Assembly: GCA_016786745.1 (NCBI GenBank)
Contig: JAEUVS010000019.1
Span: 1-62,305, forward strand
Origin: Chitinophagaceae bacterium
GTDB lineage: Bacteria > Bacteroidota > Bacteroidia > Chitinophagales > Chitinophagaceae
Direction: 5' to 3'
DNA length: 62,305 nucleotides
In this document: positions 20,708 through 33,913 of the stretch, piece after piece
How positions within the stretch are numbered: the first letter of the stretch is position 1
How the letters are laid out: each line of letters opens with the position of its first letter
The notes under the pieces: model-generated
What the model saw: only the letters and a program-made list of their open reading frames with translations
What the model was told of the DNA's origin: nothing
The model's database searches: none
Position numbers and translations under genes: made by a program

Positions 20708-21030
20708 ATTGGTATTTACTTAATATGGCAAATATCAAAATTGAAAAGGTTCGGGAAGTATTTTTGTTTGGGGAAATTGCAAAAGGACTAATAAAACGCT
20801 GGTTTATCTCCATAAATACCCGGCTTGTTGATCCCAACATGACGTTTGGGTATAAATCACGGTTAAACGGATGCATTTTACTGATGTGAACGATGCGGCA
20901 GAACCCGGCAAATTCTCAAAATTTTACCTCGAACTTTTCTTTTCCAGGAACTCATTTGCATGATTACGGTCATTTGAGGAGATGATTTTTCCCCTATACT
21001 GAAAATTTTGCTCGTAAAGGGTTCGAATAA
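20708..21030. other. Intergenic region between DJ-1 gene and NO locus
   Basis: This stretch separates two divergent genes and must hold both promoters. I see no coding frame with family similarity, no hairpin terminator and no repeat apart from the palindrome that follows it. The sequence becomes AT-rich towards 21000. Confidence 0.4.
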
Positions 21031-21052
21031 TAAAAGTATTTAAGTACTTTTA
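21031..21052. promoter_or_regulatory. Palindromic operator before the NO locus
   Basis: TAAAAGTA-TTTAAG-TACTTTTA is a perfect 8-bp inverted repeat with a 6-base spacer, ending 21 bases before the ATG of the first gene. Its right arm TACTTTTA also resembles the Bacteroidota -7 element TAnnTTTG, so a bound repressor would block transcription. Rrf2-type regulators such as NsrR bind palindromes of this size, and two Rrf2 genes are in the locus; the link is inferred. Confidence 0.55.
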
Positions 21053-21073
21053 TGCTTGATATATTCTTCCAAA

Positions 21074-21442
21074 ATGACAAATAACGCTCCACTTATTTAT
21101 TCCTGCTCCGGCTGCTCAAGCGCTGCCCAAATGGCAAATTACCTTGCCATACAAATAGACAGGCTTGGCATTGCAGAGATGTCGTGTATTGCTGGCGTGG
21201 GAGGCAATGTAAAAAAGCTGGTCAAAACGGCGCTATCCGGCAGAAAGATCATTACGATAGATGGATGCCCCCTGGCATGTTCAAAAGCCTGCCTTTCCAA
21301 TCACTCGATAAAACCTGATATGGAAATAGAACTGACGCGGATGGGTGTTCAGAAACGGCAACATGAAGATTTTAACAGGGAGCAGGCAACATCGATCCTG
21401 GAAGAATTGAAAGAAAATATTACTCTGACATTCAATCAATAA
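21074..21442 (+). CDS. DGC-domain putative zinc-binding protein
   Basis: The 122-residue cytosolic protein has the DGC-family cysteine pattern: CSGCSSAAQMANYLA near the start, MSCIAGVGG in the middle and IDGCPLACSKACL, giving seven cysteines that can bind metal. The family name comes from the conserved Asp-Gly-Cys, here IDGC. Function is not established; such genes often stand beside NO-detoxifying or anaerobic-respiration genes. The ATG at 21074 was chosen over an upstream TTG because it begins next to the conserved domain. It is the first gene after the palindrome and is followed 12 bases later by the di-iron repair protein. Confidence 0.8.
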   Translation: MTNNAPLIYSCSGCSSAAQMANYLAIQIDRLGIAEMSCIAGVGGNVKKLVKTALSGRKIITIDGCPLACSKACLSNHSIKPDMEIELTRMGVQKRQHEDFNREQATSILEELKENITLTFNQ

Positions 21443-21454
21443 ATCAAGAAATAT

Positions 21455-22405
21455 ATGCGAACAATAGCCGAGAACATTTTAGATGTAACATTACTTGAGC
21501 CCAGGCAAAAACATCCTGCCATCTTCAACAGGTTCGATGCGTTGAGGGAAGGTGAAAGTCTCACGATTCACAACGACCACGATCCAAAGCCTCTTTACTA
21601 CCAATTGTTGGGTGAGCGGGGTAACACGTTTAACTGGGAATACCTGGAACAGGGCCCTGAATGGTGGAAGGTGCGAATCAGCAAGAACATAACTGGTGCA
21701 TCCGAAGAGACGCTAGGTGAAATCGCAGCAAAAGATTTGCGGAAGGCACAGATATTTAAAAAGTATGGCCTGGATTTTTGTTGTGGTGGCAAAAAAACTG
21801 TGAAACAGGCCTGTTCCGAAAAAGGACTCGACGTTACTAAGATCGAATATGAATTGCAGCAGGCTGATAAGAACCTGAATACGCGACCCGTACCCTATGA
21901 TGAATGGAGCCCTGACTTTCTTACGGAATATATTGTTAATACACATCATAGCTACGTAAGAAAATCACTACCGGACATTAGAATGTATGCAGCCAAGGTG
22001 GCAAAGGTGCATGGCAACAATCATCCCGAGTTGACGGAAATTCATCAATTAGTGGAAAACATTGGTAAGGAATTAACTGCTCACATGGAAAAGGAAGAAA
22101 CTATATTGTTTCCGGCCATTAAAAGACTGGTGTCATTTTTAAATACAGGGCAATACGTAATTGCTCCGAATGAGGGACCGATCAAAAATCCTATTTCAGT
22201 AATGGAAATAGAACATGAAACGGTTGGCAAAGCTCTTGAGAAAATCAGAGAGCTCAGCGACAATTATACTTTGCCGGAAGATGCCTGTGCAAGTTATAGC
22301 CTGTTATATAGAATGCTGGAGGAGTTTGAAGATGATTTGCATACACATGTTCATCTTGAAAACAACATTCTTTTTCCCAGGGCATTGGCACTTCAAAAAA
22401 ATTAG
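21455..22405 (+). CDS. ric: Iron-sulfur cluster repair di-iron protein (RIC/ScdA/YtfE) with DUF2249 head
   Basis: The 316-residue cytosolic protein has three parts. Residues 1-75 resemble DUF2249 (LLEPRQKHPAIFNRFDAL, IHNDHDPKPLYYQL). Residues about 90-130 form the ScdA_N domain with YGLDFCCGGKKTV. Residues about 150-316 form a hemerythrin-like four-helix bundle with the di-iron ligands (THHSYV, HPELTEIH, LTAHMEKEETILFP, IEHETVG, THVHLENNILFPRAL). RIC proteins repair Fe-S clusters damaged by NO and oxidants and are classic members of NO-responsive regulons. The DUF2249 fusion at the front is also known in Bacteroidota and denitrifiers. Confidence 0.93.
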   Translation: MRTIAENILDVTLLEPRQKHPAIFNRFDALREGESLTIHNDHDPKPLYYQLLGERGNTFNWEYLEQGPEWWKVRISKNITGASEETLGEIAAKDLRKAQIFKKYGLDFCCGGKKTVKQACSEKGLDVTKIEYELQQADKNLNTRPVPYDEWSPDFLTEYIVNTHHSYVRKSLPDIRMYAAKVAKVHGNNHPELTEIHQLVENIGKELTAHMEKEETILFPAIKRLVSFLNTGQYVIAPNEGPIKNPISVMEIEHETVGKALEKIRELSDNYTLPEDACASYSLLYRMLEEFEDDLHTHVHLENNILFPRALALQKN

Positions 22406-22521
22406 GTTGTGGAAAAGAATAGGCCGATCAAACGCAGCAAAGCCTTTGTGCAGTTCTCAAAAACGTGACTAACAAGGATCGTGCAGACAATCAGCTGAAA
22501 CTATTAATAAATTTCATCCAC

Positions 22522-23325
22522 ATGGTTATTAGTGCAAATACAAAAATTGCCACCATTTTAAAACACAACCCTGCCGCCCTGGACGCAATTGTGAGCATCT
22601 CACCGAAATTTGAAAAATTGCGCAACCCGATCTTAAGAAAATTAATGGCAGGCAGGGCCTCTGTTTCAATGGCAAGCAAAATAGGCGGTTGCCAGGTTAA
22701 TGATTTTTTTATAAAACTGAAACCGCTGGGATTCGATATCGACCATTTAACAACGGCAGTTGAAAACGAAAAAATAGCGGAGCCCGATTTTATCAAAACG
22801 TTGCAACCTGATCAAATTGTCGTATTAGACGTGCGCCCGGTTCTTGCTTCAGGCAAAGATCCCTTAAGCCTGATTCTCGAAAGCATTAAATGCCTGAACG
22901 ACGGTCAGGTGTTAAAGATCCAGAATAGTTTTGAACCAACTCCTTTGATGTTGCTGTTGCAAAAGCAAGGTTTTGATTCTTTTGCCAATCATATTAATGA
23001 TAACCTGGTCGAAACCTGGTTCTATCGAAAATCGGCAAAAGAACGATGGGAAGCCCCGGTAGTCGACGGCTCAACAAATTGGGATGAAGTCGTTTTAAAA
23101 TTCACCGGGCGTTACCACACAATCGATGTTCGGGATCTTGAAATGCCGCTGCCAATGCTCACCATTCTTGATGCTTTGGATAAGCTTCCCATCGGAAACG
23201 CTTTGTATGTTTATCACAAACGAATACCTGTATTTCTGGTGCCGGAACTGGCTCAAAGAGGTTTTGATTACAGAATAAAGGAAATCCGGGAAGGTGAAGT
23301 GCATCTGTTGATTTTCAGAAAATAA
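22522..23325 (+). CDS. DUF1858-DUF2249 protein of the NO locus
   Basis: The N-terminal 70 residues from MVISANTKIATILKHNPA form a DUF1858-like helical domain, and the rest holds two DUF2249-like modules (VVLDVRPVLASGKDPLSLI; TIDVRDLEMPLPMLTILDAL, then ALYVYHKRIPVFLVPEL). DUF2249 occurs widely in clusters for NO or nitrite metabolism, but its activity is unknown. I start at the ATG at 22522, which coincides with the DUF1858 start; a GTG at 22465 would add 19 residues. Its stop overlaps the start of the next gene by one base (TAATG), so the two are translationally coupled. Confidence 0.8.
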   Translation: MVISANTKIATILKHNPAALDAIVSISPKFEKLRNPILRKLMAGRASVSMASKIGGCQVNDFFIKLKPLGFDIDHLTTAVENEKIAEPDFIKTLQPDQIVVLDVRPVLASGKDPLSLILESIKCLNDGQVLKIQNSFEPTPLMLLLQKQGFDSFANHINDNLVETWFYRKSAKERWEAPVVDGSTNWDEVVLKFTGRYHTIDVRDLEMPLPMLTILDALDKLPIGNALYVYHKRIPVFLVPELAQRGFDYRIKEIREGEVHLLIFRK

Positions 23326-24629
23326 TGTTCTCGCAAAAAAGCAATACCGGCCCCGTTAAAAATCCCAGCCACAATGTGGTATTGCCTTTTTATATCTATG
23401 CAGCATTGGCCTTTGCCGTTTCCACGGCGCTTCTTTTTACTTCTTCTGGTTATTTCTCACAACATTATTTTCAACCGAAGATTTTAGCGATTACTCATAC
23501 GATGGCGCTCGGGTGGGGTACGATGATCATATTAGGTTCGAGCTACCAGCTATTGCCGGTGCTTATAGAACGCAAATTATACAGCAATATACTGGCACAT
23601 CTTTCATTTCTATTCGCAGGCATCGGCATTCCGATGCTGGTATGCGGATTTTATACCTTCAATATGCGGTGGCCTGCTCAATACGGAGCGCTATTGATAG
23701 ATGTTGCGATAATATTGTACCTGGTAAATGTGGTTGCAAGTTTTGCCAAGAGCAAGCAGGAGAATATTCATGCGTTATTTATGCTGACCGCGGGAATTTG
23801 GCTTTTTATCACAATTTTGATCGGTAGCTTGTTGGTGTATAATTTCACTTACAATTTCTTGCCAAAGGATTCGCTGCACTATCTCTCTTTGCATGCTCAT
23901 TTGGGCATTGCGGGGTGGTTTTTGTTGTTAGTAATGGGAGTCGGCACGCGACTGATCCCGATGTTCCTCGTTTCAGGGTATAATAATAAAAAGATATTGT
24001 GGTGGATGTATGGCTTAACAAACGCCGGGCTGATATCTTTCGCGTTTTCATTCTTATATTTTCCATCCAAACATATTTACCTGATTGATGTATCATTTAT
24101 TGCAATTGCTGTATTGCTGTTTGTATATTATTGCCGGAAAGCTTACTTAACACGTATCCGAAGGCAAACCGATGCACAAATGAAAGTTTCTTTGCTTGCT
24201 GTAATAATGATGGTGGTCCCTTTATTATTCCTTGTAGCGATCATATCGATATTGATGTTCACTGCTACTGATATAAACCTGGTAACAGCCTACGGATTCA
24301 CGATTTTTTTTGGATGGCTGACGGCAATTATTTTAGGTATGACATTTAAAACGCTGCCATTTATTATATGGAATAAAACATATCATGCGAGAGCAGGATT
24401 GGGACGAACTCCGAACCCTAAAGATTTGTTCAGTGCCGGTCTTTTTAATGGCATGGCACTATGCTACCTGACTGGGTTTGTGTGTTTCGTATTTGGCATT
24501 ATGACAGTCAACCCTCTTGCATTAAAAGGAGGCGCGGCACTATTGATCTGCTGCGCTTTTTTGTACAATGCCAACGTCGCTAAATTAATTTTTCATAAAC
24601 CAGGTAGGTATGAAAACTCAAACAAATGA
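23325..24629 (+). CDS. 12-TM heme-copper-oxidase/NnrS-like membrane protein
   Basis: The 434-residue integral membrane protein has about twelve helices. Conserved-looking His residues lie in helices: LAITHTMALGWGTMIILGSS near the start and SLHAHLGIAGWFLLLVMGVG in the middle, a spacing reminiscent of heme-binding helices of NnrS or cytochrome oxidase subunit I. NnrS is a heme and copper membrane protein that protects against NO stress. Family assignment is not certain, since no full oxidase active site (Tyr-linked His and a HH pair) is visible. Coupling to the DUF2249 gene and the neighbouring RIC and Nod genes supports a role in NO handling. Confidence 0.65.
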   Translation: MFSQKSNTGPVKNPSHNVVLPFYIYAALAFAVSTALLFTSSGYFSQHYFQPKILAITHTMALGWGTMIILGSSYQLLPVLIERKLYSNILAHLSFLFAGIGIPMLVCGFYTFNMRWPAQYGALLIDVAIILYLVNVVASFAKSKQENIHALFMLTAGIWLFITILIGSLLVYNFTYNFLPKDSLHYLSLHAHLGIAGWFLLLVMGVGTRLIPMFLVSGYNNKKILWWMYGLTNAGLISFAFSFLYFPSKHIYLIDVSFIAIAVLLFVYYCRKAYLTRIRRQTDAQMKVSLLAVIMMVVPLLFLVAIISILMFTATDINLVTAYGFTIFFGWLTAIILGMTFKTLPFIIWNKTYHARAGLGRTPNPKDLFSAGLFNGMALCYLTGFVCFVFGIMTVNPLALKGGAALLICCAFLYNANVAKLIFHKPGRYENSNK

Positions 24630-24933
24630 TAATATGAAATGCGCAACCGCCCTGGGAGGCTTGCGCGAGGTGCTGGACCCCGAGTTGAGCTTAAACGTGG
24701 TTGACCTGGGGCTTATTTACCAATTGAATTTCGAGGAGCGATCAAAAGAGATACTTGTTATAATGACCCTGAGTACGCCTTTCTGCCCAATGGGCGATTC
24801 CATCGTAAATTCGGTAAAGAACAATTTGACGGCTGGTTTCCCCGGATATGATGTGCAGGTCAGCCTGACATTTGATCCACCCTGGAGTTATCAAATGATA
24901 ACGAAAGAAGGACTTAATTTTTTAAACAGATAG
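24610..24933 (+). CDS. MIP18/DUF59-family metal-sulfur cluster assembly factor
   Basis: The 107-residue protein matches the MIP18/SufT/PaaD group: LREVLDPELSLNVVDLGLIY, LSTPFCPMGDSI with the conserved Cys, and VSLTFDPPWSYQMITKEG. Relatives help insert or mature Fe-S clusters. The start overlaps the upstream membrane-protein gene by 20 bases; an internal ATG at 24634 would remove the overlap and is possible. In this locus it probably helps rebuild Fe-S proteins under NO exposure together with RIC. Confidence 0.85.
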   Translation: MKTQTNDNMKCATALGGLREVLDPELSLNVVDLGLIYQLNFEERSKEILVIMTLSTPFCPMGDSIVNSVKNNLTAGFPGYDVQVSLTFDPPWSYQMITKEGLNFLNR

Positions 24934-24936
24934 TCG

Positions 24937-25368
24937 ATGCTGAGCTACACGTGTAAGACCGCTATAAAGGCCGTAATCTATCTCGCTTCAAAATTTGAAA
25001 AGGGCGAGAACGCGGGTATTAAGGAAATTGCCGAATACATCGATGCCAGTGAGCACACGGTCGGCAAATTACTGCAAACACTGGTAAGGCAGCGGATTAT
25101 TAACAGCGTAAAAGGCCCGTCCGGCGGTTTCTACATTTCCAGGGAACAAATAAAACAACCCATCATCACTATTGTTGAGGCAATTGACGGAAAACAGGTC
25201 TTTAAAGAATGCGGGCTTGGATTAAGTAAATGTTCGGCCGCGCATCCCTGTCCTATACACAATGAATACAAAGAAGCGAGGAACCTGGTAGAGAAACTAT
25301 TCACTCAAAAGAAAGTTGCCGACTTGCGTGAGCCTGTAAATAGCGGGATGGCCTATTTGTTCGGGTAA
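24937..25368 (+). CDS. Rrf2-family transcriptional regulator, Fe-S-type (NsrR/IscR-like)
   Basis: The 143-residue regulator has an N-terminal winged helix (CKTAIKAVIYLAS, IAEYIDASEHTVGKLLQTLV, VKGPSGGFYIS) and three cysteines, Cys92, Cys99 and Cys105, spaced C-x6-C-x5-C. Similar triads hold the Fe-S cluster in NsrR, which senses NO. It is the last gene of the plus-strand NO operon, 3 bases after the MIP18 gene, and likely controls the operon and perhaps nod. It converges with a second Rrf2 gene. Confidence 0.92.
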   Translation: MLSYTCKTAIKAVIYLASKFEKGENAGIKEIAEYIDASEHTVGKLLQTLVRQRIINSVKGPSGGFYISREQIKQPIITIVEAIDGKQVFKECGLGLSKCSAAHPCPIHNEYKEARNLVEKLFTQKKVADLREPVNSGMAYLFG

Positions 25369-25375
25369 AATTTTG

Positions 25376-25849
25376 TTACCGGAGTACTGGCGCTCCTTTC
25401 GGGGATTTTATTTCTTTGTTGCCAATGAATAGCTTTCCCTTACTTATTTCCTCAGCAAGATTTTGAATTGTCCTGGTTTCGAAAAGTTGAATCAGCTCCT
25501 GTTTAATGGTCTTATATTGATTATGCATCGGGCATGGCTTTCGCTCCGAGCACTCGTTTAAACCCAGGATGCATTTCGTTAAAACATCATCTTCATGAAC
25601 CGCTTTAAGCACTGCCCGAACAGGTAATTGTTTTGATTTTTCTGTAATGTAAAATCCCCCGTTGGGGCCATGAATTGAGCTGATGATCTTATTGTCCTTC
25701 GTTAGCTTCTGGAGTATTTTGGCCGTGAACGATTTTGGGGAATCTATGGCCCTCGCAATTTCGGCCAGCCCCAGTTTTTTCTCCGGCGAGCTTTTCTGTG
25801 CAATGTAAATGGTGGCTCTCAAAGCATATTCGGTTGCCTTCGAAAACAT
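25376..25849 (-). CDS. Second Rrf2-family regulator with Cys triad
   Basis: The 157-residue protein has the same design as its neighbour: winged helix (ATEYALRATIYIAQ, IARAIDSPKSFTAKILQKLT, IHGPNGGFYITEK) and Cys93, Cys100, Cys106 in the same C-x6-C-x5-C spacing followed by PMHNQYK. The two genes converge with only 7 bases between their stops. They are paralogues of moderate similarity, so one may sense NO and the other Fe-S status or redox. About 50 bases upstream begins the QueD-like gene's end, so this gene may be co-transcribed with QueD on the minus strand. Confidence 0.92.
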   Translation of the reverse strand: MFSKATEYALRATIYIAQKSSPEKKLGLAEIARAIDSPKSFTAKILQKLTKDNKIISSIHGPNGGFYITEKSKQLPVRAVLKAVHEDDVLTKCILGLNECSERKPCPMHNQYKTIKQELIQLFETRTIQNLAEEISKGKLFIGNKEIKSPKGAPVLR

Positions 25850-25901: not shown

Positions 25902-26345
25902 TTAAATTTCGCCTGCAATAGGATAACGTACCCATTCTGCATAAGAATCTTTGGTTTCAAACAATCGCAAAGCCAAAAGATTTATGCCTTCGGGAAGTAT
26001 CTGTTCAATACTTTTTTTAGCGTAAATGAGAAGATTTTCAGCTGAAGGCTCAACTTCCATTTGGAGGAGATTTTTAAATGAAGTAGCTGGACCTTTATCC
26101 AGGTAAGCGCGTGACAAGGCAATTTTATGATCCAGTTTTTCGATAACGGCCCGGTTCACCATTGATTTTAAATCTTTAAAATCTATGAGCATACCAGGTG
26201 AAGTAATATAGGCATCCTCAGGCACTGTTGATGTTACAGTAACATGCAGCTCATAGGAATGTCCATGGATATTTCCGCAGGCTCCCTTATGGTCATGTAT
26301 CGCATGCGCCATTTCAAAATGAAAAATTTTTGTTGCCTGCAGCAT
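25902..26345 (-). CDS. queD: 6-carboxy/6-pyruvoyl-tetrahydropterin synthase family protein (QueD-like)
   Basis: The 147-residue T-fold enzyme shows the zinc His in FHFEMAHAIHDHKGAC, the catalytic Cys in GACGNIHGHSYELHV (which also gives two more zinc His), and the C-terminal ELRL-like LRLFETKDSYAEW. QueD makes 6-carboxytetrahydropterin for queuosine; the related PTPS makes tetrahydrobiopterin. Both are possible. The ATG at 26345 fits the family start MLQATKIFHFEMAH; upstream in-frame codons would read through the regulatory region. It is divergent from nod, with 149 bases between starts. Confidence 0.88.
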   Translation of the reverse strand: MLQATKIFHFEMAHAIHDHKGACGNIHGHSYELHVTVTSTVPEDAYITSPGMLIDFKDLKSMVNRAVIEKLDHKIALSRAYLDKGPATSFKNLLQMEVEPSAENLLIYAKKSIEQILPEGINLLALRLFETKDSYAEWVRYPIAGEI

Positions 26346-26438: not shown

Positions 26439-26470
26439 AATAAATAAGGACAAAATTATCCTTATTTATT
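26439..26470. promoter_or_regulatory. Long palindrome upstream of nod
   Basis: AATAAATAAGGA and TCCTTATTTATT form a perfect 12-bp inverted repeat with the 8-base spacer CAAAATTA. It ends 24 bases before the nod ATG, the same distance as the palindrome before the DGC gene. The inner AAGGA...TCCTT resembles the AAGTA...TACTT core of the other site, suggesting a common Rrf2-type repressor. As a transcript hairpin it would lack a strong GC stem, so an operator is the better reading. Confidence 0.6.
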
Positions 26471-26494: not shown

Positions 26495-28840
26495 ATGGAG
26501 AAAAGAAACTTTATGAGTTTCCTGCTGAACCCCAAAAACTGGTGGCTACCGCTCCTCGTTATTTTTTTGATCAGTATTGCCGGAGTCACAATGATTGGCG
26601 TACACACGTATAAAGAAGCTCCTCCTATTCCCGAATTTATTTCCCGGGACAATAAAACTTTTTTTTCCACGGAAGACATACTAAAAGGTCAGAGCGTATT
26701 TCAGAAATATGCCCTGATGGAATATGGAAGTATGTTTGGGGATGGTGCAAACAGAGGCCCTGATTATACAGCAGAAGCATTGCATCTCGTGGCAACATAC
26801 ATGAACCAGTATTATCGCGCCCAGTTTCAAAATGATACCACCAACGAATTTCTGAACGGGGGCGCTGCAGAACAGGTGAAAGCAGATATAAAGAGTAACC
26901 GGTACAGTAAAAGTCAAAACAGCGTAATAATGGGCGATGCACAAGTATTTGCCGCCAGGGAATTGGTTAAGCATTATTATCAAAAGTTCACGGACGCAGC
27001 ATCTCCAGGTGCATTCAAACCGGCCGGTTATATTAAGGATCCCGATGAACTGAGATGCCTGGCGGCTTTTTTCTTTTGGGGTGCATGGGTTTGCGGGGTG
27101 GAACGGCCAGGAGAAAGCTATAGTTATACACATAACTGGCCCTATGATAAAACAGCAGGAAACACACCCACTTCAGCTATCATTGTATGGAGCATTATCG
27201 GTTCAATGGGTTTGGTTTTTGGTTTAGGGATTGTGCTGTATTATCATGGCAAACTTGAAAAGCTATCGGATGAGGTTTATACAAAGAAAGCGGAGCCATT
27301 CATGACAAAAGGAGATATTGGCAAATTTCAACCAGATTCCGTTCAGCGGGCTACTTATAAGTTTTTTTATACAGCAATCTTACTTTTTGGAGTACAGGTG
27401 CTCTCCGGAATATTGACCGTGCACGATTTTGTCGGATTTGTGCGGTTCTTCGGTTTCGATATTTCGGAACCTTTGCCCATAACGGTAACAAGAAGCTGGC
27501 ATGTGCAGTTATCTCTTTTATGGATCTCGGCCTGCTGGATCGGTGCCTCATTTTTTATGATGTCTCTCGTTTCTCCAAAGCAACCCAGGAGACAGGTTAC
27601 TTTGATCAATACAATATACTGGCTCACTATATTGCTGGTAACCGGCTCATTGGCCGGTATTCTGTTGGGACCTAAAGGCATTATCGGCACAAACTGGTAT
27701 TGGCTTGGTCACCAGGGATGGGAGTATGTTGAAATCGGGAAACTGTGGCAAATTGTATTGGGTGTTGTATTTATTATCTGGGCCGTGTCGCTGTATCGCG
27801 GTATTAAACCTGTAATGAAGTTAAAACAACCATGGGCACTGCCGAACTGGTTAGTCTATGCTACTTTTAGTATCATTCTATTGTTGGTCTCGGGATTTAT
27901 TGCTACACCGAGAACTAATTTCGTAATTGCAGACTTCTGGCGATGGATGGTGGTGCACATGTGGGCCGAAGCCTTTTTTGAAGTTTTCACTACAGTGCTG
28001 ATCGGTTACTTCATGGTGTTGATGGGACTGGTAAGCAGGCAGGCGGCGATAAGAGTAATTTACCTCGCAACGTTGTTGTTTCTCGGCTCAGGGTTATTGG
28101 GCATTTCGCATAATTTTTACTGGAATGCAAAGCCGGTCGGGACAATGGCATTGGGCGCCGTGTTTTCAACATTGCAGGTAATTCCGTTGATATTACTCAC
28201 ATTGGAAGCATGGAGGTTCAGCAAACTCCCGAAGGTACTTGAAAGTAACGGCCATGATAATGGAGATGTCAGCAGCCGGTTTGGATTTTCGGAAGTTTTC
28301 CTTTTCCTGGTGGCTGTCAATTTTTGGAATTTCTTTGGAGCGGGTGTCTTAGGTTTTATCATTAATCTTCCTATTGCCAACTACTACGAACATGGCACCT
28401 ATCTTACGGTCAATCATGGTCATGCTGCATTAATGGGAGTATACGGCAACCTGGCATTGGCCGCAGTTCTTTTCTGTTGCCAGTTATTATTCAAGGCTGA
28501 AAAATGGAAACCTTCCCTGATTAAAACCGCTTTCTGGTCAATAAATGTGGGTCTGCTTCTCATGGTGGTACTGGATTTATTTCCTGCGGGCATATGGCAA
28601 TTCCAAACTGTTACTGAACATGGATTATGGTACGCCCGCAGTAGCGCCTTCATCGAAAGCACAGGATTTCAGACGCTCACCTGGCTCCGCATCGTGGGAG
28701 GATCTATTTTTACCATAGGAGGGGTAATACCATTAATATGGTTTATTACAAGCGGCAGAAGGAGATTAAAGAGAAATTCGTTAAAGCCCATACAGCAGGC
28801 GGTAGAAAAGAAAAAAATGAAAACCGAAATAGCAGAATGA
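26495..28840 (+). CDS. nod: Putative nitric oxide dismutase (Nod), qNOR paralogue
   Basis: The 781-residue membrane protein has the qNOR layout: N-terminal helix, periplasmic domain, then about 13 helices. Heme and FeB ligands are mostly kept: His336 in SWHVQLS, His488 and Glu492 in HMWAEAFFEVF, His539, and His641/His643 in NHGHAALMG. But the FeB His-His pair is His-Asn (SHNFYW, Asn540) and the Glu 21 residues later is Gln561 (FSTLQVIPL). In Geobacillus qNOR numbering these are H560N and E581Q, the substitutions described for NO dismutases of Methylomirabilis and HdN1. The quinol site is also altered: after His310 the expected Glu is Gly314 (Glu332 in qNOR), and the C-terminal Asp of the usual PGD is missing (RIVGG). 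Nod is proposed to convert 2 NO to N2 and O2 without external electrons. Activity is inferred from these residues only. Confidence 0.85.
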   Translation: MEKRNFMSFLLNPKNWWLPLLVIFLISIAGVTMIGVHTYKEAPPIPEFISRDNKTFFSTEDILKGQSVFQKYALMEYGSMFGDGANRGPDYTAEALHLVATYMNQYYRAQFQNDTTNEFLNGGAAEQVKADIKSNRYSKSQNSVIMGDAQVFAARELVKHYYQKFTDAASPGAFKPAGYIKDPDELRCLAAFFFWGAWVCGVERPGESYSYTHNWPYDKTAGNTPTSAIIVWSIIGSMGLVFGLGIVLYYHGKLEKLSDEVYTKKAEPFMTKGDIGKFQPDSVQRATYKFFYTAILLFGVQVLSGILTVHDFVGFVRFFGFDISEPLPITVTRSWHVQLSLLWISACWIGASFFMMSLVSPKQPRRQVTLINTIYWLTILLVTGSLAGILLGPKGIIGTNWYWLGHQGWEYVEIGKLWQIVLGVVFIIWAVSLYRGIKPVMKLKQPWALPNWLVYATFSIILLLVSGFIATPRTNFVIADFWRWMVVHMWAEAFFEVFTTVLIGYFMVLMGLVSRQAAIRVIYLATLLFLGSGLLGISHNFYWNAKPVGTMALGAVFSTLQVIPLILLTLEAWRFSKLPKVLESNGHDNGDVSSRFGFSEVFLFLVAVNFWNFFGAGVLGFIINLPIANYYEHGTYLTVNHGHAALMGVYGNLALAAVLFCCQLLFKAEKWKPSLIKTAFWSINVGLLLMVVLDLFPAGIWQFQTVTEHGLWYARSSAFIESTGFQTLTWLRIVGGSIFTIGGVIPLIWFITSGRRRLKRNSLKPIQQAVEKKKMKTEIAE

Positions 28841-29805: not shown

Positions 29806-29813
29806 TAGCTTTG
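29806..29813 (+). promoter_or_regulatory. Probable -7 promoter element of the multicopper oxidase gene
   Basis: TAGCTTTG fits the Bacteroidota -7 consensus TAnnTTTG and lies 33 bases before the preferred ATG at 29847. No clear TTG -33 element was seen about 20 bases upstream, so the assignment is tentative. Confidence 0.4.
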
Positions 29814-29846
29814 CAGCATCAAAATAATCATTCACTACTAAACAAT

Positions 29847-31178
29847 ATGAACAACAAACCGACTAACAAAGTAATCGAATACGCACTGGAAGCCAGTGAA
29901 TTTGATTGGGAAATAAAGCCCGGCAAAATCATCCGCGCCTGGGGTTTTAATCAACAACTGCCCGGACCGCTTTTAAAAGCGAAACAGGGTGACACCCTCG
30001 TTGTAAAGGTGATCAATAACTTACCAGAGGCCACCATCGTTCACTGGCACGGGATCCGCCTGCCGGCTTCGATGGATGGAACAGGCGAAGTGCAAAAACC
30101 AATTGAACCCGGCGAAACATTCGAATACCGTTTTGACGTGCCGGATGCCGGAACTTTCTGGTATCACTCGCATCATAACGAAACGGTGCAGGTGGAACGT
30201 GGCATGTATGGCGGCATCGTAGTAAAAGCGGAAAATGATCCCATAGTGGACAACGACCGGATACTGCTGGTTGATGATATGAAGCTGACAAAAGGAAATA
30301 CGTTTAAAAAGGGTGGTGCTGTGAGCCGGTGGATGGAACGCCATGACGGTCGTGAAGGAGGTACCTGCCTGATTAACGGCAAGGAGGCACCGACTTTACA
30401 CATGAATGCAGGCCAGGTGGAGAGATGGCGGTTTGTAAATGCAGCCAGCGCCCGGTATTTTAAATTGAGTTTGCAAGGAAAACCTTTTAGAGTTATTGCT
30501 ACTGACGGCGGCTTGCTTGAAGCGCCGGGAACAAAAACAGAATTGCTCATCACGCCGGGAGAACGTTACGACATTATCGTTGGGCCATTCGACGAGGGAG
30601 AAACGTTCAATATCGAAACGCTGCCCTATAACCGCATGACATTCGCAAAATCTAAAAGGAAGATGTATGCCACGGTGCAGGTAGCCGAAGCAAAACCTTC
30701 AAAGGCCTTCATACCGGGTAAACTGAATGAAATACCCTCACTTGTGCAACAAAATGCAAAGGTTAATCGCGTTGTTAAAATGTCGGTGGGACCATCTTTG
30801 AAGCGTGGAATTGATTTTTTGGTAAATGGTGAAATGCATTGCAATGACGCGCCCGTGATGGTTGGCGATTTACAGGTTTGGGAAGTGTATAACACGAGCC
30901 TGATGGATCACCCCTTTCACTTGCATGGATTTTTCTTCCAGGTGCTGGAAGAAAATGGTAAAATGCCAGCATATAAAGCGTGGAAGGATACTTATAATCT
31001 GAAACCAAAAAGCAAAATCAAGATTGCGTGGATGCCGGATAACCGCCCCGGGAGATGGATGTATCATTGCCATATTTTAGAACATCATGCTGCCGGTATG
31101 ATGGCGCATTTTGAAGTAATTGATCCCGCGCAACCACGGAGAAAAGAGGTAAAAACCGCTCATGGATGCCATGTTTAG
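29847..31178 (+). CDS. Multicopper oxidase (laccase/CueO-type)
   Basis: The 443-residue protein carries the four copper motifs of three-domain multicopper oxidases in order: HWHGIRLP, WYHSHHNETV, HPFHLHGFFF and HCHILEHHAAGMM, which holds the type 1 Cys, two His and axial Met and the type 3 His. These enzymes oxidise Cu(I), phenols or metals and reduce O2 to water. No signal peptide is visible, which is unusual for the family; the start used here (ATG 29847) begins MNNKPTNKVIEYALEAS. An upstream TTG at 29811 lies inside the probable promoter and was rejected. The gene leads a plus-strand set with dps, copB and an FMN reductase. Confidence 0.9.
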   Translation: MNNKPTNKVIEYALEASEFDWEIKPGKIIRAWGFNQQLPGPLLKAKQGDTLVVKVINNLPEATIVHWHGIRLPASMDGTGEVQKPIEPGETFEYRFDVPDAGTFWYHSHHNETVQVERGMYGGIVVKAENDPIVDNDRILLVDDMKLTKGNTFKKGGAVSRWMERHDGREGGTCLINGKEAPTLHMNAGQVERWRFVNAASARYFKLSLQGKPFRVIATDGGLLEAPGTKTELLITPGERYDIIVGPFDEGETFNIETLPYNRMTFAKSKRKMYATVQVAEAKPSKAFIPGKLNEIPSLVQQNAKVNRVVKMSVGPSLKRGIDFLVNGEMHCNDAPVMVGDLQVWEVYNTSLMDHPFHLHGFFFQVLEENGKMPAYKAWKDTYNLKPKSKIKIAWMPDNRPGRWMYHCHILEHHAAGMMAHFEVIDPAQPRRKEVKTAHGCHV

Positions 31179-31319
31179 AAGTTAAATGCATGGTTTATCG
31201 CGCATAACCATGTTATTACTCGTACCTTTCATTTCCCCTCAACTTCCTATCCCACCAGTTCTTTCAAATATCCGTGATCGTTCAACGACCACACATATCA
31301 TCAATAAAAACTTAAGATA

Positions 31320-31793
31320 ATGAAAACAGAAATTGGAATTAAACCCGCGAACACTGCCGAGGTTGCGCAATCATTAAACATCTTACTCGCCGATGAGCAT
31401 GTATTGTACATCAAAACAAGAAAAGCGCATTGGAATGTAGAAGGTCCCGATTTTTTAACCATTCACCGCTTCTTCGAAGAACAATACAAACAACTCGAAG
31501 AGATTATTGATGACGTGGCGGAACGCATTCGCACAATAGGTCATTATGCAGAAGCCACTCTTGCTGGGTTTTTAGCCGAAACACACCTCAGCGAAGAAAC
31601 GCGGGAAAGAAATAATAGCGCCGGTTTCATCAAATCGTTACTCGAAGATCATGAAACTATCATCATTCACCTGCGTGAGAATATTGAACGTTACGATAAG
31701 GAATGGAAAGATGTTGGTACCAGCGATTTTATAACCGGATTAATGGAAACTCACGAGAAGATGGCGTGGATGTTAAGGGCGCATAAACCCTGA
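31320..31793 (+). CDS. dps: Dps-family DNA-protecting ferritin-like protein
   Basis: The 157-residue protein is a Dps: LLADEHVLYIKTRKAHWNVE holds the first ferroxidase His and HWNV signature, FLTIHRFFEEQYKQLEEIID the second His, Asp/Glu set, followed by the DDVAERIRTIG helix. Dps dodecamers oxidise Fe(II) with peroxide, store iron and shield DNA. The short N-terminal tail has few Lys residues, so DNA binding may be weak. It lies 141 bases after the multicopper oxidase gene, in an oxidative and metal stress group. Confidence 0.94.
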   Translation: MKTEIGIKPANTAEVAQSLNILLADEHVLYIKTRKAHWNVEGPDFLTIHRFFEEQYKQLEEIIDDVAERIRTIGHYAEATLAGFLAETHLSEETRERNNSAGFIKSLLEDHETIIIHLRENIERYDKEWKDVGTSDFITGLMETHEKMAWMLRAHKP

Positions 31794-31822
31794 TAGCATC
31801 TATCAAGGGGTTATATTCTAAA

Positions 31823-33913
31823 ATGGAGAAGCACCATCACCATCACCGGTATACGTGTCCAATGCACCCGGAGGTCATCAGGGATGCTCCGGGCAAATGC
31901 CCAAAATGCGGAATGGACCTGGTTCCTGTTGACGCAGCTCATGAAGAACACGCAGCATTCGATAAACATGCCGGACACCATACACACGATTTTCTGAAAC
32001 GTTTCTGGGTCTGCCTGGTTATTACTGTTCCTATTCTTTTTCTCTCACACATGATTCAAACCTGGCTTGGATTTACATTCAGGTTCCGGGGCGACCAATA
32101 TGTGTTACTCCTTTTAAGCACCTTCGTTTATATATATGGTGGCATGCCGTTTCTTAAAGGCATGGTAGATGAAATAAGAGCAAACGCTATCGGCATGATG
32201 ACCCTCGTGGCGATTGCCATTACTGTTGCATACATTTATAGCGCAGCCGTGGTATTTGGTTTAACGGGAATGGATTTTTTCTGGGAACTCGCTACGTTAA
32301 TTGATATCATGCTGCTGGGTCACTGGCTGGAAATGCGTTCACAAACGGCAGCTTCCAAAGCCCTGGAAAGCCTCGTTGCGCTATTACCCTCAATAGTCCA
32401 TGTGGAACGGAATGGAGTAGTTGCAGATATCAATTTAAAAGATCTCCATAACGGAGACATTGTCTTAATTAAGCCAGGCGAAAAGATTCCTGCGGATGGC
32501 ATCGTGCTCGACGGAACGTCGTACGTAAACGAAAGCATGCTTACCGGGGAAAGTGTCCCGGTTAAAATACAAAGGGATGACAAGTTGATCGGCGGTTCCA
32601 TCAATGGTGATGGAGCGTTGAAGGTAAAGATCACCGGGGCAGGAAGCGACAGCTATCTTAATAAAGTCATTACGCTTGTTTCTTCGGCGCAGGCATCAAA
32701 ATCCAAAACTCAGAATCTTGCCGATAAAGTGGCAAAATGGCTCACCATTATTTCAATCACTGTCGGTGTGGCAACCTTTATTTACTGGTTCACCCGCGAA
32801 GCCGATATGGCGTTCGCCCTGGAACGAATGGTTACGGTAATGGTTACCGCTTGTCCGCACGCGTTGGGCGTGGCTATTCCTTTGGTTGTTGCAATCTCAA
32901 CTTCGTTGTCGGCAACAAAGGGACTACTCATACGTAATCGTACAGCATTTGAACTTGCAAGAAAATTAAATACAATTGTTTTTGATAAGACGGGAACACT
33001 CACCCAGGGTTCGCATGAAGTGCAAAAAGTAATTTCTGCAGACAATAATTTTTCTTCGGATGAATTGCTGAAATACGCTGCTTCGGTGCAACAAAATTCC
33101 GAACATCATATTGCTCACGGCTTGCTGAAGAAGGCAGCAAGAAATAATTTATCACTATGGCCGGTTGAAGATTTTACCTACATGCAGGGTGTTGGAGTAA
33201 AGGGTAAGGTCAACGGCAACGAGATTATTTCTGCCGGACCAAATTATTTCAGACAAATCAATCAATCACTTCCTGTTCTTCCGGGTACAGTTGATCAGCA
33301 AACAGAAAGCGTAAGTTATCTTTTGATTAATGGCAAACTGGCGGGAATGTTTACGCTCGCCGATTCTATTCGCGGGTCTTCAGCGCAGGCAATTGATGAT
33401 CTGAAGAAGATGGATATCAAAAGTTATTTGCTTACCGGAGATAATGAAAGCATCGCAAGATCGGTTGCAGAAAAATTAAAGATGGATGGATATTTTGCTA
33501 ATGTCCTTCCCCACGAAAAACAGGATAAAATAAAATCTATCCAGGCGGATGGCCGGGTTGTAGCCATGACAGGCGACGGCGTGAATGACGCGCCGGCATT
33601 GGCACAGGCAGATGTAGGAATAGCAGTTGGATCAGGAACAGATGTTGCGGCTGAAACTGCAGATGTTATTTTAGTGAACAGCGACCCGAAAGATGTTGTT
33701 GAGATGATTTCGTTTTCGAAAGCCACCTATGGAAAAATGATCCAAAATCTTGCGTGGGCCGTTGGTTACAATGTAATAGCTATTCCTTTGGCGGCAGGCG
33801 TATTGTACCCGGGCTTTGTTTTAAGTCCTGCGATGGGCGCGGTGTTGATGTCACTGAGCACAGTAATTGTTGCTATCAATGCACAGACGCTGCGTAATAA
33901 ATTTGAAAAATAA
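31823..33913 (+). CDS. copB: CopB-type heavy-metal P-type ATPase (P1B-3)
   Basis: The 696-residue ATPase starts with MEKHHHHHRYTCPMHPEVI, a His run joined to a heavy-metal-binding domain (CPMHPE ... CPKCGMDLVP). Then come about eight helices, the actuator loop LTGESVP, the ion-binding helix with TACPHALGVAIP, the phosphorylation motif FDKTGTLTQG, and the GDGVNDAPAL hinge. The Cys-Pro-His in place of Cys-Pro-Cys and the His-rich N-terminus mark the CopB group, which exports Cu(II) or Cu(I) and silver. It starts 30 bases after dps and is followed 8 bases later by the FMN reductase gene, so one operon is likely. Confidence 0.94.
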   Translation: MEKHHHHHRYTCPMHPEVIRDAPGKCPKCGMDLVPVDAAHEEHAAFDKHAGHHTHDFLKRFWVCLVITVPILFLSHMIQTWLGFTFRFRGDQYVLLLLSTFVYIYGGMPFLKGMVDEIRANAIGMMTLVAIAITVAYIYSAAVVFGLTGMDFFWELATLIDIMLLGHWLEMRSQTAASKALESLVALLPSIVHVERNGVVADINLKDLHNGDIVLIKPGEKIPADGIVLDGTSYVNESMLTGESVPVKIQRDDKLIGGSINGDGALKVKITGAGSDSYLNKVITLVSSAQASKSKTQNLADKVAKWLTIISITVGVATFIYWFTREADMAFALERMVTVMVTACPHALGVAIPLVVAISTSLSATKGLLIRNRTAFELARKLNTIVFDKTGTLTQGSHEVQKVISADNNFSSDELLKYAASVQQNSEHHIAHGLLKKAARNNLSLWPVEDFTYMQGVGVKGKVNGNEIISAGPNYFRQINQSLPVLPGTVDQQTESVSYLLINGKLAGMFTLADSIRGSSAQAIDDLKKMDIKSYLLTGDNESIARSVAEKLKMDGYFANVLPHEKQDKIKSIQADGRVVAMTGDGVNDAPALAQADVGIAVGSGTDVAAETADVILVNSDPKDVVEMISFSKATYGKMIQNLAWAVGYNVIAIPLAAGVLYPGFVLSPAMGAVLMSLSTVIVAINAQTLRNKFEK

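Follow-up and report, generated by a model that had tools for sequence, protein, structure and literature searches.

A Nod-clade protein in a Chitinophagaceae genome, with a predicted Rrf2 operator and frequent nosZ company

Results

Sequence support for a Nod-clade protein

From its alignment and its position in the tree, it is well supported that the protein encoded by the gene below is a member of the NO dismutase (Nod) clade and not a canonical quinol-dependent NO reductase (qNOR). The gene lies in a 62,305-nucleotide stretch of DNA from a Chitinophagaceae bacterium, which was analysed as a whole and is called the window here. We tentatively propose that the enzyme may convert NO by dismutation into N2 and O2, needing no external electron donor, a reading of the sequence that we hold with limited confidence.

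26495–28840, + strand: nod, encoding a 781-aa qNOR-like protein whose FeB site carries N540 and Q561

The reading frame is single and uninterrupted and starts with ATG. The Pfam domains PF00115 and PF22085 (COX1, NorB cytochrome-c-like) were found in the protein, and no NCBIfam family matched it at E 0.001. A sequencing or frame artefact was rejected, because there is one open frame and a relative (P0002) is 88% identical, with the others of the best 120 matches listed at 76–83%.

The top solved relative by sequence is the Geobacillus qNOR 3AYF (E = 2.3e-156). In the alignment of the two, H560 and E581 of the FeB site are changed to N540 and Q561, while H508, E512 and H559 are kept as H488, E492 and H539; the offset is exactly 20 for all five positions. 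The quinol-binding residues are lost, with E332 converted into G314, D746 into G736 (within the C-terminal stretch V734-G735-G736) and Y329 into D311, and the quinol-site His328 is kept as H310. Since both E332 and D746 are gone, no ordinary quinol site is left. The core residues H336, H488, H539, H641, H643 and E492 are all retained, and the heme c motif CXXCH is absent from the whole protein as inspected. Canonical qNOR identity was thus rejected: N540, Q561, G314 and G736 stand where such enzymes have the FeB His, the catalytic Glu and the quinol-site Glu and Asp. The first-pass annotation had named the H560N and E581Q changes, the 20-residue shift including the retained His488 and Glu492, the replacement of the quinol Glu332 by Gly314 and the missing Asp of a PGD motif, and every residue that it gave can be read off the 3AYF alignment.

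In spite of these differences the fold is that of the quinol-dependent enzyme over its whole length. An AlphaFold model built with 39 sequences (mean pLDDT 79.8, pTM 0.82) has 3AYF as its best Foldseek match (TM 0.86/0.89, rmsd 3.1). The pLDDT falls below 50 at residues 538–542, so that the model gives no geometry for the N540 site. Plasmid-encoded qNOR-type proteins among the matches listed, with that of Cupriavidus necator H16 as an example, are 33–39% identical to the window protein.

Like the putative Nods of Methylomirabilis (DAMO_2434/2437), HdN1 and Muricauda ruestringensis, the window protein has the FeB His changed to Asn and the Glu to Gln, and it shares with them the lost quinol site, the qNOR-like length and fold and the lack of heme c. 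This likeness is judged by published criteria (PMC3413370, where loss of quinol-site residues is given as a mark of Nod).

Census and tree of the family

The census comprised 352 rows of at least 600 aa, namely the window protein, those of similarity-picked loci and proteins among the matches listed (best 120 of 2036 and best 120 of 1778); being drawn from best matches, with some genomes present twice, it is biased toward Nod and redundant. Asn and Gln occur together in 343 rows and the canonical His and Glu in nine (six from Chitinophagaceae genomes, three from plasmids), and no row is mixed. This clean split means that the N540/Q561 pattern is not due to chance. The groups were drawn up by the N and Q residues themselves, and 17 positions switch between them. 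All 343 Nod-side rows have F541 and W543, and at the D746 position 340 of them have Gly or Ala and three are gapped, as against Asp in 9/9 canonical rows. Of the 343, 327 retain the His328 equivalent, an observation that speaks against the N2 and O2 proposal.

The five core histidines H336, H488, H539, H641 and H643 are present in all 352 rows, and together with E492 they are invariant across the 343 Nod-side rows, which points to selection. This bears on the idea that the protein is a degenerate or regulatory remnant, one that binds NO without turning it over or is dispensable. The resemblance of the adjoining operon and regulators to NO-stress genes would suit such a remnant, but the full-length open frame and the invariant core make it very improbable.

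In a tree of 74 rows, built by a quick method that gave a long-branch warning among the nine canonical rows, a branch with a support of 100 parts these nine from the window, as expected for the Nod-clade placement proposed at first pass. The window protein stands beside its 88% identical relative, among Chitinophagaceae and other Bacteroidota. The tree holds Scalindua- and Algoriphagus-named rows and no Methylomirabilis or HdN1 reference Nods; the former two and Asinibacterium sp. OR53 (formerly Sediminibacterium) fall on the window's side. When a Planctomycetota Nod was used as query, no Methylomirabilis-named protein appeared among the best 120 matches listed.

Two further observations concern Nods from other phyla. 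Those of an 'Armatimonadetes' MAG (L059) and a 'Chlorobiota' MAG (L061) are sisters on very short branches, nested among the Bacteroidota in the tree, a placement that would reflect recent transfer or misbinning. Two Planctomycetota genomes (G471 and G475, of loci L095 and L099) encode a second, more distant Nod-like protein, 47–48% identical to that of the window.

The first-pass annotation had predicted a Nod in a Bacteroidota genome. Alignment, census and tree bear out the clade membership; as news it does not stand, since publications on Nods of Bacteroidota go back to 2012, and the window adds a member. The Muricauda Nod was described in that year (PMC3413370), nod in Sediminibacterium and Algoriphagus has been reported (PMC10264387), as has nod in Scalindua (PMC10359470), and a Bacteroidota Nod clade has already been described (PMC13386854). 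The Sediminibacterium and Algoriphagus Nods and those of lake enrichments (PMC13386854) are of the same phylum as the window's and, as judged from the Algoriphagus rows and OR53 of our tree, on the same side. The accessible text of PMC6636425 contains no mention of Bacteroid, Muricauda, Algoriphagus, Sediminibacterium, nosZ or Chitinophag. What is added here is the conserved nod palindrome with its tie to Rrf2 genes, the association of nosZ with nod and OR53 as a test strain. Among the literature matches listed, there was no report of a nod operator motif or of a count of nosZ with nod; relative to the published Bacteroidota Nods these two are additions, although PMC5723336 does mention NosZ in some carriers.

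A conserved palindrome between nod and a divergent Rrf2 gene

The neighbourhood upstream of nod in the window is as follows.

21025–21066, no strand: second palindrome, with a ATAAAAGTATTTAAGTACTTTTAT core, upstream of the operon DGC-RIC-Rrf2a
21056–21442, + strand: DGC-domain protein (Pfam search)
21455–22405, + strand: RIC/YtfE-type iron-sulfur repair di-iron protein with DUF2249 (TIGR03652, 250.7 bits, cut-off 204.7)
22465–23325, + strand: DUF1858/DUF2249 protein of the RIC operon (Pfam)
23325–24629, + strand: hydrophobic, probably multi-helix membrane protein of the RIC operon (by eye)
24610–24933, + strand: FeS_assembly_P protein of the RIC operon (Pfam)
24937–25368, + strand: Rrf2a, a second Rrf2-type regulator, at the end of the RIC operon
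25376–25849, − strand: Rrf2b, an Rrf2-type regulator (PF02082, E 2.2e-22)
25902–26345, − strand: 6-pyruvoyl-tetrahydropterin synthase (PTPS)/QueD-like protein, between nod and Rrf2b
26439–26470, no strand: palindrome AATAAATAAGGACAA-AA-TTATCCTTATTTATT upstream of nod, predicted Rrf2 operator

The nod palindrome has 15-nt arms that are 93% complementary, and it lies about 51 nt before nod, between this gene and the divergent PTPS-Rrf2b pair. Allowing up to five mismatches in the 120 nt upstream of nod, we found a 22-nt motif in 26 of 79 loci including the window, with starts at −48 to −64. After first-order Markov shuffling the motif turned up in a mean of 0.16 loci and in two at most, a control that flatters the motif because it was derived from the same loci in which it was counted. 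Of the 21 loci with a divergent Rrf2b-type gene 18 have the palindrome, as do 7 of the 57 without such a gene. More generally, 39/78 loci have an Rrf2 relative no more than 700 nt from nod, and 50/78 have one within 4 kb. In the genome that holds the window, there are two further motif matches (2 and 3 mismatches), both inside ORFs.

The Rrf2b protein has an Rrf2 domain with three conserved cysteines, and Cys93, Cys100, Cys106 and His109 are conserved in 48/48 aligned Rrf2 proteins. Rrf2b is predicted to be an Fe-S sensor that represses nod through the 26439–26470 palindrome, and the conservation of the palindrome, mostly beside divergent Rrf2 genes, predicts an NO-induced control of nod. In such a scheme, NO would attack the Fe-S cluster of the Rrf2 protein and the nod promoter would thereby be freed. 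An NsrR next to nod has already been noted for Cecembia calidifontis (PMC13386854). The second palindrome, at 21025–21066, is unlike that of nod and, going by its position, is possibly the operator of Rrf2a.

Other parts of this neighbourhood recur beside nod to varying extents. A DGC relative follows nod within 600 nt in 16 of 79 other loci, and a PTPS/QueD-like gene precedes it in 10 of the 59 loci with enough flank. In the window the ORF of the latter extends to a TTG at 26453, and the ATG at 26345 was chosen as the likelier start. RIC/YtfE proteins are a family of NO-stress proteins. The membrane protein at 23325–24629 matches no Pfam family and has sub-cut-off heme-copper oxidase matches (PF00115, 19.7 bits; NF011053, 24 bits); it is possibly an uncharacterised NO-response protein, and its relatives occur near nod in 5/56 loci.

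On the same strand after nod (29811–33913, +), there is a metal-handling gene group. It comprises a multicopper oxidase, named by profile match, and, as judged by eye, a Dps-like protein and a His-rich P-type ATPase for metals.

Other nitrogen-oxide genes in the same genome

The genome has 4.75 Mb in 168 contigs and is rated 100% complete, the window being contig C28. Three of its genes match PF00115 above the cut-off, namely nod and two whose sequence and surroundings led us to take them for subunits of terminal oxidases. A copper nitrite reductase (NirK) on C82 scores 174 bits, below the NCBIfam cut-off of 296.3, and matches NirK structures at E 6.9e-56; it would be an NO source for the cell. 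A full-length NosZ (946.5 bits) is encoded on C84, with genes for NosL, NosD, an ABC ATPase and a cytochrome c nearby. Relatives of nod were searched for in three other genomes of the genus, with no match.

NirS was considered as an NO source of the family and rejected. Cytochrom_D1 matches occur in 140 of 394 family genomes, 76 of them above the Pfam low cut-off (25.5 bits), and the best reaches 37.6 bits over short stretches; that of the window's own genome, taken with its neighbours, has 31.6 bits. These matches were read as other beta-propellers.

Company of nod across genomes

Among the 394 family genomes, nod was found in 26, spread over 16 genera, a canonical-type qNOR (by score) in 14 and a NorB-like gene (classed by score alone) in 18. 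At most two candidates were scored per genome, so that the qNOR and NorB-like counts, as well as the count of nod together with another NO reductase (at least 1/26, G415), are lower bounds. Three of the 26 nod genes are imperfect: a contig-edge fragment (G215), one split over contigs (G234) and one with stops flagged in the matched stretch (G186). A strong NosZ is present in 218 or 219 of the 394, the difference probably being G120, which has neither nod nor another NO reductase.

In the family nosZ accompanies nod: 25/26 genomes with nod have it, against 193/368 without (Fisher p = 4.7e-6, a value that ignores kinship). With canonical-type qNOR it occurs in 12/14 and with NorB-like genes in 15/18 genomes, both sets being lower bounds on the reductases, and so it accompanies nod at least as often as the other NO reductases. 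NirK (E <1e-38) was found in 10/26 genomes with nod and 46/368 without. The nosZ counts would fit an NO reductase that makes N2O with electrons from a donor other than quinol at the former site, filling the NOR slot in a NirK-NOR-NosZ chain in which NosZ then forms N2. The near absence of another NO reductase in the nod genomes (one seen in the 26, as a lower bound) is also in line with such a role, which we consider possible but rather unlikely, and which PMC5723336 had argued for this gene type in marine relatives, noting NosZ in some carriers.

A second set comprised the best 80 of 228 nod loci with their 80 genomes, some of them near kin (L054/L055; L078/L083/L085). NosZ above the cut-off was found in 66/80 of these genomes (31/41 and 35/39), and four more had split or partial strong matches. 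When the five non-Bacteroidota genomes (an Armatimonadetes, a Chlorobiota, two Planctomycetota and a Thermoanaerobaculia) are set aside the count is 66/75, for NosZ above the cut-off was found in 0/5 of them, which argues against the reductase role. A NorB-like gene (about 67 bits or more) is present in 13 of the 80 genomes with all candidates scored, again unfavourable to it, and a canonical-type qNOR match in none.

Gene placement speaks for N2O formation. Within about 9 kb of nod, there are nos genes in 10/80 loci (NosZ in seven, NosD alone in two, L071 and L092) and nirK in 6/80 (at least 55% identity to the OR53 protein), making 16/80 in all, as against about 0.25 loci for a gene placed at random; an 8-kb flank on both sides was available in only 44 of the 80. 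Four weaker matches (35–37%) to the NirK-cytochrome fusion of OR53 were left out of the count as probable matches to cytochromes. The presence of nosZ in 25/26 nod genomes, together with nos or nirK near nod in 16/80 loci, keeps an N2O-forming role open, and the association of nod with nosZ is no less compatible with such a role than with direct formation of N2.

Discussion

What the enzyme may make

The proposal of N2 and O2 is supported by the tree, the clean N/Q split, the loss of the quinol site, the presence of NirK, the tie between palindrome and Rrf2 genes and the RIC operon. Since the same two FeB changes occur throughout the Nod side and the quinol site is left without its acids, an electron-free reaction is the simplest reading, and N2 together with O2 are the products postulated in the literature. 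Quinol would then be unable to feed the enzyme, and the altered FeB site would pair two NO molecules and return N2 and O2. Expression of nod is likely induced by NO through the neighbouring Rrf2 regulator, and the purpose for the cell may be the removal of NO coming from its own NirK or from its neighbours. Release of N2 and O2 from NO by Methylomirabilis is stated in PMC11408285; no Nod has been isolated so far (PMC13386854), and O2 release is therefore inferred. Against the proposal stands that an enzyme making N2 directly would have no need of NosZ for its own NO, whereas nosZ is found in 25/26 nod genomes and nos genes near nod in 10/80 loci. The reduction of NO to N2O with an outside donor has difficulties of its own, because the acidic quinol-site residues are gone, no heme c motif is present and the clean N540/Q561 split suggests a different chemistry.

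The lost quinol site and the tie to nosZ would be accounted for at once by a dismutation of another kind, in which 4 NO give 2 N2O and O2 with no electrons and NosZ removes the N2O, so that the two enzymes together yield N2 and O2. The same overall chemistry has been reported for ammonia-oxidizing archaea, with no nod gene known there (PMC11408285). N2O made in this way by a Nod-bearing organism does not appear in the literature consulted, and for Methylomirabilis PMC11408285 states no evidence of N2O production or reduction, in contrast to the nos cluster in the window's genome; we regard this stoichiometry as unlikely. It is likewise unlikely that Nod serves in Bacteroidota as the oxygen-producing partner of a pair of enzymes, converting NO into N2O and O2 and handing the N2O to NosZ. 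If true, bacteria that look like ordinary aerobes would convert NO to N2 and at the same time produce oxygen of their own in darkness.

A test strain and its meaning

In Asinibacterium sp. OR53 (genome G231, locus L141, 5960–13819), nod is part of one island. The genes for a fusion of NirK with cytochrome c, a protein with an FGE-sulfatase domain, SCO1 and Crp come first, followed by a divergently oriented Rrf2 gene, nod and DGC. This order places the NirK-cytochrome c near nod, as would suit an NO reductase making N2O. The genome carries nod, NirK and NosZ together, and no other NO reductase was seen in it among the two of three candidates scored. NosZ can be blocked by acetylene. With no other NO reductase seen, the three product options would be separable in one culture experiment, which makes OR53 a good strain for testing the products of Nod.

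Taken together, more than a decade after Nod was proposed its products are still debated between N2 and O2, N2O, or N2O and O2, and each answer alters how N2O emission, and oxygen in sediments and groundwater without light, are accounted for. Nods of the Bacteroidota branch are frequent in the databases that we searched and occur in cultured strains, mostly together with a nosZ whose product acetylene can block, and this company makes the branch well suited to finding out what the enzyme really produces.
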